Source: Streptomyces changanensis (GTDB lineage Bacteria; Actinomycetota; Actinomycetes; Streptomycetales; Streptomycetaceae). Taken from it: a stretch of 64,000 nt of DNA. A program made the translations under genes and the position numbers. The stretch lies in contig NZ_CP102332.1 of assembly GCF_024600715.1 (NCBI RefSeq), forward strand, positions 186,001 to 250,000, given 5' to 3'. How positions within the stretch are numbered: position 1 is the stretch's first letter; each line of letters begins with the position of its first letter. The notes below the pieces were generated by a model. The model was not told the DNA's origin. It worked only from the letters and a program-made list of their open reading frames with translations, and made no database searches. This document shows positions 60,943 through 64,000 of the stretch, piece by piece.

Positions 60943-63339
60943 ATGAGACAACCGGCCGGCAGGGGGCGACTCGTCCTCCTCTGTGTCTTCCTGGTGGTGC
61001 TGGGCGGTCCGTGGTCACGTGACGTACTCCTCGAATGGTCGACGGACCACGTCGGGCTGGAGCTGCTGCGCCGGGCACTGTTCGTACCGGGATGGCAGCC
61101 GGAGCCCGGGTCGCACCCCTTCCTGCGCGCCTACGCCTGGTTGGGCGGGCTGACGCTGATCGGGCTGATCGCCGGGATCCTGCTGCTCGTCCCCCGGCTG
61201 GTGGGCCGGGCGCCCGCGGGCGGTGTGCGGTGGGCGGCCTCCGCCGGTACCGGGGTGTTCCTCTCGGTGGGCAGCAGCACGCTGGCCTGGCTGGCCGTCG
61301 AGACCGTCGAGCCGGGCCTCCTCCTCGCCTTCGGCCAGGGCGGCTCCTTCCCGGTGCTGTTCGTCGACGGGCTGGTCTTCGGCGTGCTGCTGGGCCTCCT
61401 CATCGCCGTCGTCGGGTACGGCCGGGCCCCGAAGGCCCCGGGCGCCGTGCGCCCCGCGGCGTCCCGCAACCGTGAACGGAGTGCCGCCGTGTCCGACTTA
61501 CCCGACGATCGGCCGGTGGCCGTCGCGACCGGCACGTCGCCCGGCGACGTGACCCGCTACCTGTGCGCCGCCGCGTACACCGACCCGGCCTTCGCCGACC
61601 GCGTCGTGGAGGACGTGCTGGGCGACGGGCTCGGCGCCATCGCCGCCTCGCCGGGCGTCGACCTGGTGCCGGTGGCGCGGCACAGCCTGACCGCGGGCAG
61701 GCTGCGCCGCGAGCGGGACCGCAGGCTGACCGCCGCCTTCGGTCTCGTCGCGGTGTTCGCCCCCCTGTGGCTGCTGTTCGCGCGGCTCGCCCTGGGGGCG
61801 CTCGGGTCGGCGTCGCGGACGCGTCGGCGCGCGGTGCGGGGGCGGGAGCTGCCGCCCACGTCGGCGACGTCGTGGCGACTTGCCGGTACGGCGGGCGCGC
61901 TGCTCGTCGCCGGGGTGCTGCTGGGCGCCGCCCTGTCGGCGGTCCCCTTCCCCGGGCCGCTGGCCTGGCTGACCGGCGGCTACCTGTGGGGGGTCCCCGC
62001 GCTCCTCGCCGTGGTGGCCTGCTGCGCCCTGGTGGTGCGGACCGTCGTGGACGAGGAGCTGGACGTGGACGCGCGACTGCGGGGCGCGTTGCGGCGCGAC
62101 ACGTTCGACCCGGAGAGGTTGCCGCGACCGGGGCACCTGGAGCCGTGGGCGGCCGCGCGGATCGCGGCCGTGGCCGACGCCCAGCGGGGCAACGTCAGCT
62201 GCTACAGCGGCCATTCACCGTTCGTCGGGTACGGCAGGCGCGACGGGGAGTGGACGCTGTCGGTGCCGCTGCTGCCCGCCGACCCGGGTCCGGGCGGGGA
62301 GCGCGGTCCCCGGACCGTCGGCGGCTTCGACGCCTGGGACGTCGTGGAGCGGCTGCGGCACCGGTTGCGCGGGGCGGCACAGGAGCCGGGGGCGCCCCTG
62401 CGGGGCGTCGGAAGCGGGGATCGGGCCACCGGACGGGCCGCCGCGGAACGTGACGGGGCCGGTGGGTGGGACGGCGCGGGCGGGCGGGACGGCCTCGGCG
62501 GGCGGCCCGGCGCGGAGGGGCGCATCGAGGGGCTGGTGGTGGAGGACCGGGTGTTCGTCAGCGGCAGGGAGGTCGTACGGGACGGGCGGCTGCTGCCCGA
62601 CCCGCTGCGGCCGCCCGCCACGCGGCTGCCCACCGAGGCGCTGCGGTGGATCGCGCGGCGCCCGGACGGTGTCGCGCGGCACTTCCTCGCCTCCCACGTA
62701 CCGCTGTGGGGCGGGGAGATCGTGCCGACGCACTTCCTGCACGTGGCGGTGGAGGGTAGGACGTTGCACCTGCGGTGCGAGCGGTTCGTCCTGGGGCCGG
62801 TACGGCGTGACCTGCATGTGGTGGACCTGCTGCCGGCGGGCGCCCCCACCGCACGGCGGCGCCGCTCGTTGGCGCTGCGGGCGCTGCGGCGGTCGGGGGG
62901 CGCGCTGTGGGCGGCGCCGCGGTCGTGCCTGTCGGACGCCCTCGCCGACCGGCGCAGGCGGGTGCGTCGGCGCCACGAGGCGCGGGCCGCGGGCGACGAC
63001 CCCGCGTACGACCGCGGCGCGCGGATCAGCGTCCGCGAGGCCGCGCAGGGGCCCGAGTACTTCCACCACTTCCAGCTGGTCGACGCCCTGCGGACGCTGA
63101 ACGCCCTCGACCGGCACGCGCTGGCGGCCGTCCGGGACTTCCTCGACGACCACGGGGTCGACACGACCGACTTCCGGACCCAGACCCAGACCATCCTCAA
63201 CCACGGCGTGCTGCAGACGGGCGGGGTGAGCGTGGTCGGGAACCAGGCCGTCGGCACCGGCGCCCAGGCGACCGCGAAGTCGACCACGGCGCGGGCCGGT
63301 GGCCCGCCGCCGCCGTCCGGCCCCACGGCCACCCGATGA
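60943..63339 (+). CDS. Large multi-pass membrane protein with C-terminal pairing motif, 798 aa
   Basis: About seven membrane helices: four near residues 9-150 (LLCVFLVVLGGPW, LTLIGLIAGILLLV, GTGVFLSVGSSTLAWLAV, GLVFGVLLGLLIAVVG) and about three near 260-365 (LVAVFAPLWLLFARLALGALG, GALLVAGVLLGAALS, VPALLAVVACCALVV). A long cytoplasmic-type part follows (EALRWIARRPDGVARHF, FLHVAVEGRTLHLRC, EYFHHFQLVDALRTLNAL). Residues 751-778 hold a motif, VGNQAVG at its core, shared with the next protein. Codon 186 (61498-61500) is TTA. No known family; ATG at 60943 after GGGGGG. Confidence 0.75.
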   Translation: MRQPAGRGRLVLLCVFLVVLGGPWSRDVLLEWSTDHVGLELLRRALFVPGWQPEPGSHPFLRAYAWLGGLTLIGLIAGILLLVPRLVGRAPAGGVRWAASAGTGVFLSVGSSTLAWLAVETVEPGLLLAFGQGGSFPVLFVDGLVFGVLLGLLIAVVGYGRAPKAPGAVRPAASRNRERSAAVSDLPDDRPVAVATGTSPGDVTRYLCAAAYTDPAFADRVVEDVLGDGLGAIAASPGVDLVPVARHSLTAGRLRRERDRRLTAAFGLVAVFAPLWLLFARLALGALGSASRTRRRAVRGRELPPTSATSWRLAGTAGALLVAGVLLGAALSAVPFPGPLAWLTGGYLWGVPALLAVVACCALVVRTVVDEELDVDARLRGALRRDTFDPERLPRPGHLEPWAAARIAAVADAQRGNVSCYSGHSPFVGYGRRDGEWTLSVPLLPADPGPGGERGPRTVGGFDAWDVVERLRHRLRGAAQEPGAPLRGVGSGDRATGRAAAERDGAGGWDGAGGRDGLGGRPGAEGRIEGLVVEDRVFVSGREVVRDGRLLPDPLRPPATRLPTEALRWIARRPDGVARHFLASHVPLWGGEIVPTHFLHVAVEGRTLHLRCERFVLGPVRRDLHVVDLLPAGAPTARRRRSLALRALRRSGGALWAAPRSCLSDALADRRRRVRRRHEARAAGDDPAYDRGARISVREAAQGPEYFHHFQLVDALRTLNALDRHALAAVRDFLDDHGVDTTDFRTQTQTILNHGVLQTGGVSVVGNQAVGTGAQATAKSTTARAGGPPPPSGPTATR

Positions 63340-63350
63340 CAGGAGGGAAC

Positions 63351-63761
63351 GTGCCCCGTCAAGCCGATCCGTCGCCCGGCGAGCCGGGCGAGGCCCGCGT
63401 GCTCAACTTCGGCGTCCAGCAGTACGGGGGGCAGAGCTCCGTCGGCAACCAGGCGGTCGGTCCGGGCGCGCGCGCCGTGGCCGCCCATGTCTCGGTGCAG
63501 GCGCCGTCGGCGGACCAGCGGGCCGAGGTGGAGGCCCTGCTGCTGCTCGTCGAGCGGTTGCTGGACGAGCACCGGGCCGCGCTGCCGGACCAGGAGTCGC
63601 CCCGTACCGAACTGCGCCGGTTGCGCGAGGAGCTGGACGAGGGAGAGCCGGAGCCGGGGGTGGTGCGGCGGGCCCTGGAGCGGCTGGCGCTGTTCGCCCA
63701 GCCCGCGGCGCCGCTGGCGGCCGCCGTGGCCGAACTGACGCGGGTCGTGCAGTCCTTCTGA
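63351..63761 (+). CDS. DUF5955-like small protein with N-terminal pairing motif, 136 aa
   Basis: AGGAGGG precedes GTG 63351, 12 bases after the previous stop, so it is one operon. Residues 17-44 repeat the motif of the preceding protein (VGNQAVGPGARAVA). The rest is a charged helical domain (EALLLLVERLLDEHRAAL, ELRRLREELDEGEPEP, ALERLALFAQPAAPL) as in the DUF5955 family. It probably interacts with the larger protein through the shared motif. Confidence 0.7.
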   Translation: MPRQADPSPGEPGEARVLNFGVQQYGGQSSVGNQAVGPGARAVAAHVSVQAPSADQRAEVEALLLLVERLLDEHRAALPDQESPRTELRRLREELDEGEPEPGVVRRALERLALFAQPAAPLAAAVAELTRVVQSF

Positions 63762-63928: not shown

Positions 63929-64000
63929 ATGCCGCGACACGGAAGGACGTCACTGGCTCTGGGGCTCGCCGCGGCGGTCCTCGCGCACCTGCCGGCCGCG
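63929..64000 (+). CDS. N-terminus of a secreted protein, probably a chitinase (cut by the window end)
   Basis: AAGGAG lies 9 bases before ATG 63929. The 24 visible codons form a signal peptide start: MPRHGRTSLALGLAAAVLAH. No mature part is seen. The chitinase-type operator just upstream suggests a chitin- or N-acetylglucosamine-related enzyme, inferred from the promoter only. Confidence 0.6.
   Translation, partial: MPRHGRTSLALGLAAAVLAHLPAA

Follow-up and report, generated by a model that had tools for sequence, protein, structure and literature searches.

In Streptomyces changanensis, a stretch of 64,000 nucleotides (contig NZ_CP102332.1, positions 186,001 to 250,000, hereafter the window) carries two neighbouring genes, for a large, putatively membrane-spanning protein that we call P1 and a small protein that we call P2, whose facing ends bear the same 28-residue motif. 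We think it probable that the two make up a signalling unit independent of NLR proteins, joined by homotypic contact between the motif copies that is likely to be amyloid-like. What has been observed is that the motif is shared and paired, that the family has a large variety of motifs, mostly alike within a pair, and that the downstream domain is swapped between pairs; it is on these points that the argument is built. The features needed from the outset are as follows.

60943..63339, forward strand: P1, 798 residues with several long putative membrane-spanning helices, proposed receptor or scaffold (translation, 83 homologues listed, AlphaFold2 model)
63351..63761, forward strand: P2, DUF5955 family, 136 residues from a GTG start, proposed effector or adaptor (Pfam PF19380, 81 homologues listed)
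63196..63279, forward strand: first motif copy, P1 residues 752-779 (alignment with P2, motif profile)
63402..63485, forward strand: second motif copy, P2 residues 18-45 counted from the GTG (alignment with P1, motif profile)

The original prediction, made from the letters of the window, described a motif of this length on the two adjacent proteins, and the alignment holds up well: P1 752-779 and P2 18-45 are identical at 19 of 28 positions without a gap, the earlier frame having begun one residue sooner. Aligned without gaps, P1 and P2 score 92 in BLOSUM62, whereas 1000 shuffles of P2 average 35 and never exceed 57, and with P2 as query over the 6.9 Mb genome the tail of P1 is the second match (expect value, E, 1.3e-4), followed by a third at E 0.046 that we take as chance. 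Indeed, the motif profile finds two copies in this genome, at E 2e-14 and 3e-14, and no third credible one, the next best match reaching only E 0.086. The DNA of the two copies is identical at 55 of 84 positions, with the same codon at 11 of the 19 identical residues, so that a recent DNA duplication looks unlikely.

It had also been allowed that homologues of the pair might lack the motif, or that it might be a common low-complexity run. Homologues keep it: the motif pattern is present in 75 of 84 P1-family and in all 82 P2-family sequences (window proteins included), the nine that fail being truncated, distant or, in the case of P0148, a close variant outside the pattern. In an alignment of 28 motifs from both sides, hand-picked from 141 distinct ones with deviants such as P0121, P0147 and P0161 excluded, 8 of the 28 columns are invariant, and the motif is more conserved than its flanks, since the P1 residues after it and the P2 residues before it vary far more. 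Whole genomes were scanned with the 28-position motif profile in genus, family and class samples, which overlap. Ten of 150 genomes in the genus sample are positive, and each of the ten holds exactly two copies, adjacent and on the same strand, which is the recurrence at facing ends of neighbouring genes that had been foreseen. The family sample gives 25 positives among 297: in 19 of them the strong copies number exactly two and are adjacent, and the other six show a single weak, partial match (E 0.008-0.05); the class sample gives 15 among 394, four with two strong copies and 11 with a single weak match. Taken together, the genus and family rows hold 26 distinct genomes with the two-copy pattern and no lone strong copy among those candidates that were scored, which were not all of them. 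Strong copies are thus seen solely as an adjacent pair, and this speaks against a common low-complexity run. In addition, 58 named loci were located through the P2 motif in Streptomyces, Kitasatospora, Actinomadura, Lentzea, Micromonospora, Verrucosispora and others, and all 58 hold exactly two motif copies within 500 nucleotides (median spacing 184.5) as well as a P1-family open reading frame (ORF), sometimes clipped by a contig end; since the search pattern was derived from the P2 motif, it is the presence of the second copy that carries information.

Of particular interest is that the same arrangement extends to a wider P1 family with motifs of other kinds. Weak DUF5955-like paralogs in other genomes of the genus carry different N-terminal motifs, and the gene upstream of them ends in a matching variant. 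P1 proteins can be traced through a helical module that stands directly before the motif:

63010..63195, forward strand: C-terminal helical module of P1 (profile A3; module profile match G000:C1:249010-249195)

Over 61 genomes of the genus the module profile gives 68 matches in 45 genomes, 61 of them strong, in 43. All 68 loci were read; every upstream protein matches the P1-family profile (best segment at least 54 bits), and 60 of the 61 strong loci have a downstream ORF, the contig ending at the remaining one (L176). Examples of the matched cores, given as P1 tail and next protein, are NISGSGNRVGH and NISGNGNHVGH at L151, NNSFVHGDNNTTNSGTQ and NNSFVTGNNNTTNSGTQ at L157, GNVTLGSHNTVTS and GNVTIGDHNTVTS at L161, and NFGVMNGGTMTGPVQATPFS and NFGIINNGDMTGPAQAAPFS at L166. 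Summed over the 60 loci, own pairs reach an ungapped score of 4172, and none of 10,000 random re-pairings exceeds 2408. A second pairing test used gapped scores, excluded tails related to the own tail and took the best candidate ORF for own and foreign tails alike; its 88 loci are these 60 plus 28 new ones from the 48 matches of a class scan with the module (positive: 33 of 246 genomes, 16 of 95 genera). The own tail scores above every unrelated tail in 76 of the 88 loci and reaches p <= 0.05 in 81, while unrelated cross scores have a median of 29 and a 99th percentile of 53. Motifs that differ widely between paralogous pairs and yet match within them are what one would expect if each channel must avoid cross-talk. 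The predicted recurrence is therefore borne out in the larger family too, with many different, mostly pair-matched motifs, and together with the retention of the motif in homologues this lends support, at the level of sequence, to the early suggestion of a receptor/effector or scaffold pair coupled by motifs without an NLR. The early remark that no NLR is present also stands: P1 and P2 show no NB-ARC or NACHT match in Pfam, and no EAD domain match, and the genome offers no further protein with a credible copy of the motif.

The seven weak module matches (L209-L215) are P1 paralogs without a motif tail, which score 14-22 and serve as clean negatives; perhaps they represent an ancestral, constitutive form. 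They end instead in a conserved tail of KAD-Y-DA type, and one of them (L214) lies in the window's own genome at C1:1035192-1035344. Some further observations belong to the family at large. At L145 (G029:C12) a matching motif pair is found with a hydrophobic upstream open frame of 239 residues, in a genome without a match to the P1 module, and the motif principle may couple other proteins as well. Seven loci (L162, L164, L165, L169, L171, L174 and L203) have a further ORF after the partner gene that begins with a WN..TQ.WE-like stretch, possibly a third component in that subfamily, and the partners at L158, L163, L177, L181, L201 and L242 seem to have two tandem copies of the motif.

What, then, occupies the slot downstream of P1? 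Of the 88 partners, 67 were labelled DUF5955-like (by an iterative profile, and so approximately), seven PNP, four EAD1 and three TIR. Seven stay unlabelled: L177, which has a matching motif; L197, L198 and L233, which have no matching partner; and L195, L203 and L206, where the mechanical choice of ORFs fell on the wrong one, the likely partner being visible in another frame. Pfam was run on 19 partners from other pairs, the remaining TIR and PNP labels being given by similarity to those. It assigned CAP12-PCTIR_TIR to the partners of L157 and L178, PNP_UDP_1 to those of L188, L225 and L238, and EAD1 to those of L220, L221, L222 and L232, whose P1 proteins stood outside the Pfam run; none of the 19 has a caspase match. 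Among ten small non-enzyme partners, two (L142 and L145) pass the DUF5955 cut-off. The seven PNP partners are homologous to one another and carry several different motifs, with own scores of 70-156 against a cross median of 39.5 and a cross maximum of 101, and the TIR partners have own scores of 74-108 against a cross median of 38.5 and a maximum of 120. It is because the slot holds TIR and PNP effector domains, or an EAD1 adaptor, in some relatives that we favour a receptor or scaffold role for P1, with the protein encoded downstream providing the output. P2 itself passes the Pfam gathering cut-off for DUF5955 (PF19380) with 28.0 bits against 27.1, as a canonical member would, whereas P1 has no Pfam match above cut-off. 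Canonical DUF5955 proteins differ from P2 in sitting at another locus (G000:C1:5599086-5599346, or L141, in the same genome; L121-L140 elsewhere) and in having no motif in the 12 copies that can be read, which come from 11 of those 20 loci plus L141; a DUF5955 match of some kind is present in 88 of 101 genomes of the genus.

Several results pull against the idea of a motif-coupled, amyloid-like unit, and they deserve to be set out together. In only 21 of the 60 loci does the own partner rank first among all 60, relatives having motifs in common. The own-pair score is non-significant in 7 of 88 loci (L197, L198, L200, L221, L222, L226 and L233); of these, L197, L198 and L233 show no matching neighbour among the candidate ORFs of the locus, and in the other four the pair motifs look alike by eye and fall below significance. 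The EAD1 pairs match weakly, with own scores of 33-66 against a cross median of 27.5 and a maximum of 52, two of the four lying above p 0.05, and they are the weakest case for pair matching. Of the small non-enzyme partners, three (L146, L147 and L228) lie under the DUF5955 cut-off and five (L168, L182, L205, L224 and L243) have no Pfam match. With P1 as receptor, the orientation of NLR/Bell pairs would be inverted, the membrane protein bearing its motif at the C-terminus. AlphaFold2 gives low confidence for both motifs in its single-chain models, and their pairing is a matter of sequence. The 28-position motif profile has no match among PDB sequences at E <= 10, short profiles having little power in such a search. 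As to L198, the P1 tail there carries a motif with no partner after it, and the open frame that follows encodes a putative transposase.

The predicted structures give some shape to the proposal. The AlphaFold2 model of P1 (mean predicted local distance difference test score, pLDDT, 83.4; predicted template modelling score, pTM, 0.72) has five long helices, at residues 59-87, 94-122, 136-159, 306-333 and 347-382, which we read as membrane helices, and after the soluble part listed below come a long helix (637-685), then the module, and lastly a tail that is modelled with low confidence from residue 757 on. In the P2 model the motif has low pLDDT and a short predicted hairpin.

62194..62802, forward strand: predicted soluble alpha/beta part of P1, residues 418-620 (AlphaFold2 model)
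63510..63752, forward strand: four-helix bundle of P2, residues 59-139 of the 141-residue form counted from an ATG at 63336 (AlphaFold2, pLDDT mostly over 90)

Structure searches returned nothing significant; in Foldseek, START/Bet v 1-type proteins make up most of the top rows for P1 (E 0.2-1.4), this fold having been considered for residues 431-740. The P2 structure has no PDB match at E <= 0.001. From all this we infer a topology, a physical contact, an amyloid state, an order of the two proteins, a trigger and an output, along the following lines. P1 would sit in the membrane by several helices and present a cytosolic domain, the helical module and an unstructured C-terminal motif, and P2 would present the same motif at its N-terminus ahead of its four-helix bundle. 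At rest the P1 motif would be kept apart. Once P1 is triggered or clustered, its motifs could stack and template those of P2 into a joint beta-rich assembly that is most likely short and amyloid-like, and the P2 bundles thereby concentrated at the membrane would have their effector or adaptor function switched on. By analogy with related pairs, which hold TIR, PNP_UDP phosphorylase or EAD1 in the P2 slot, the cell would probably respond with a conflict reaction, with dormancy or with cell death.

That the motifs might assemble as short amyloids is something we infer from their length, composition and apparent disorder, and from analogy with BASS and RHIM-like motifs. The main rival to such an assembly is one-to-one docking: the motifs could form small hairpins or solenoid turns, docking singly or in short stacks and recruiting P2 to P1 without fibres. 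We regard this as possible, though on balance unlikely. EADs obey the same logic, having copies on a core component and on an effector, often from an adjacent gene, that are most similar to each other, as set out in PMC7159879; EAD1 itself is found on four partners, and the hairpin predicted in P2 fits docking too. The motifs, however, are of about 20-28 residues with low model confidence in both proteins, unlike small folded EADs, and they fit the description of amyloid signalling motifs as roughly 20 residues long, often polar and highly diverse, in PMC8086366.

The remaining explanations question the roles of the two proteins, or the motif itself. P1 could be an executioner that permeabilises the cell once its tail is templated, with P2 as trigger or brake as in NLR/Bell pairs; the polarity of those pairs, a C-terminal motif on one protein meeting an N-terminal one on the other (PMC7889193), places the motif of the membrane protein just where P1 has it, and P1 does have several long helices. 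Its large soluble part argues the other way, as does the presence of TIR, PNP_UDP and EAD1 downstream of P1 in relatives, TIR and PNPase being named as effector domains of other conflict systems in PMC7159879, and we consider an executioner P1 improbable. Unlikely, too, is that the motif simply tags both proteins for structural or localisation purposes, say to build a stable membrane scaffold, with neither switch nor immune role. A constitutive complex would equally give strict co-occurrence and conservation, and the frequent TTA codons of P1 (below) could indicate development over defence, but the broad diversification of pair-matched motifs and the swapping of downstream domains would be hard to explain. 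Finally, we give next to no credence to chance, low complexity or neutral duplication, by which the similarity would be a residue of composition or of an old duplication. The motifs are rich in Gly, Ala and Asn, and some score is to be expected, as the unrelated cross scores of the second test reflect; the shuffles and permutations, the only 55 of 84 identical DNA positions and the conservation across Streptomyces, Kitasatospora, Actinomadura, Lentzea and Micromonospora already contradict it.

Returning to the locus, two smaller features of the genes should be recorded.

63336..63339, forward strand: ATGA, where the P1 stop overlaps an in-frame ATG upstream of P2 (sequence)
61498..61500, forward strand: TTA codon, codon 186 of P1 (sequence)

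Spacing of -4, the ATGA type of overlap, is seen again in many relatives. The start of P2 is probably the GTG at 63351, judging from the AGGAGG before it, and a P2 homologue from a genome named Streptomyces kanasensis (P0003) begins at the equivalent position. In Streptomyces, TTA codons put translation under dependence on the bldA tRNA, and the one noted early on in the gene for the membrane protein is indeed there. Such codons occur in 28 of 56 P1 ORFs of the named loci (L063-L120) and in 19 of 182 other conserved nearby ORFs, or at 0.82 and 0.35 per 1000 codons, which is the fairer figure because P1 is long. In the mechanically called ORFs, 27 of 33 P1 TTA codons fall within the first 40 codons, many of them at codons 14-20 in one Streptomyces group; that of the window, at codon 186, lies outside. 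The loci are related, so the enrichment is suggestive only. The next gene starts at 63929, at the window edge, and runs to 65026 in the genome, encoding a product of 365 residues with a signal-peptide-like start by eye; no cluster like it is common to the named loci.

How does the P1/P2 family compare with what is already described? Searches through open-licence PMC literature turned up no account of it. RHIM, fungal PP and HET-s type motifs are likewise short templating motifs that connect receptor and executioner (PMC7889193), although no sequence relation to them was seen, the PDB search with the motif profile being of low power. EACC1 systems, according to PMC7159879, are also two-gene, membrane-associated, common in actinobacteria and variable in their effector part; they pair a single transmembrane helix with a caspase-fused protein, unlike P1 with its multiple long helices and its soluble part. 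The EADs of multicellular prokaryotes come closer, since matching copies on a core component and on an effector, often from the adjacent gene, follow a homotypic rule (PMC7159879), and four partners in the P1 family carry EAD1, an adaptor proposed there to recruit effectors. The rule of similarity within an operon holds for the short motif in most loci and is weak for the EAD1 pairs. An EAD is a small folded domain, whereas the P1/P2 element is a short, apparently unstructured motif, and the core component here is P1 in place of VMAP, iSTAND or GAP1.

The nearest likeness is to the BASS1-10 motifs of NLR/Bell pairs, with their many motif families, mainly in filamentous bacteria and also found with TIR or CHAT domains (PMC7889193 and PMC8086366). 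A similar short motif at the facing ends of proteins from adjacent genes is common to those pairs and to the P1/P2 family. Going by the published descriptions, BASS pairs are defined with an NLR, whereas here its place is taken by a membrane protein that belongs to a large, separate family, the N-terminal motif lies on the proposed effector side, and the partners are DUF5955-like, CAP12-type TIR, PNP_UDP or EAD1 proteins. Tentatively, and with a confidence that stops somewhat short of even, we would go further and propose a widespread class of NLR-independent amyloid signalling in actinobacteria: receptors that cross the membrane several times, and that may contain a helix-grip domain binding a lipid or other ligand, would each be connected through a private amyloid motif, prone to diversify, to one effector, be it a helical bundle, a TIR protein, a PNP_UDP phosphorylase or an EAD1 adaptor, and multicellular bacteria would thereby have a set of insulated channels with which to sense phage or the state of the envelope. 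Functions are thereby suggested for a domain of unknown function and for the P1 proteins, a large membrane family that lacks annotation; the motif-less P1 paralogs offer a natural negative control, the swapped enzyme domains come with existing assays, and pair-private motifs could supply orthogonal assembly tags. A review of the field asks whether there are NLR-independent signalling amyloids in bacteria (PMC7889193), and the P1/P2 family, with its many motif types, is a concrete and testable candidate.

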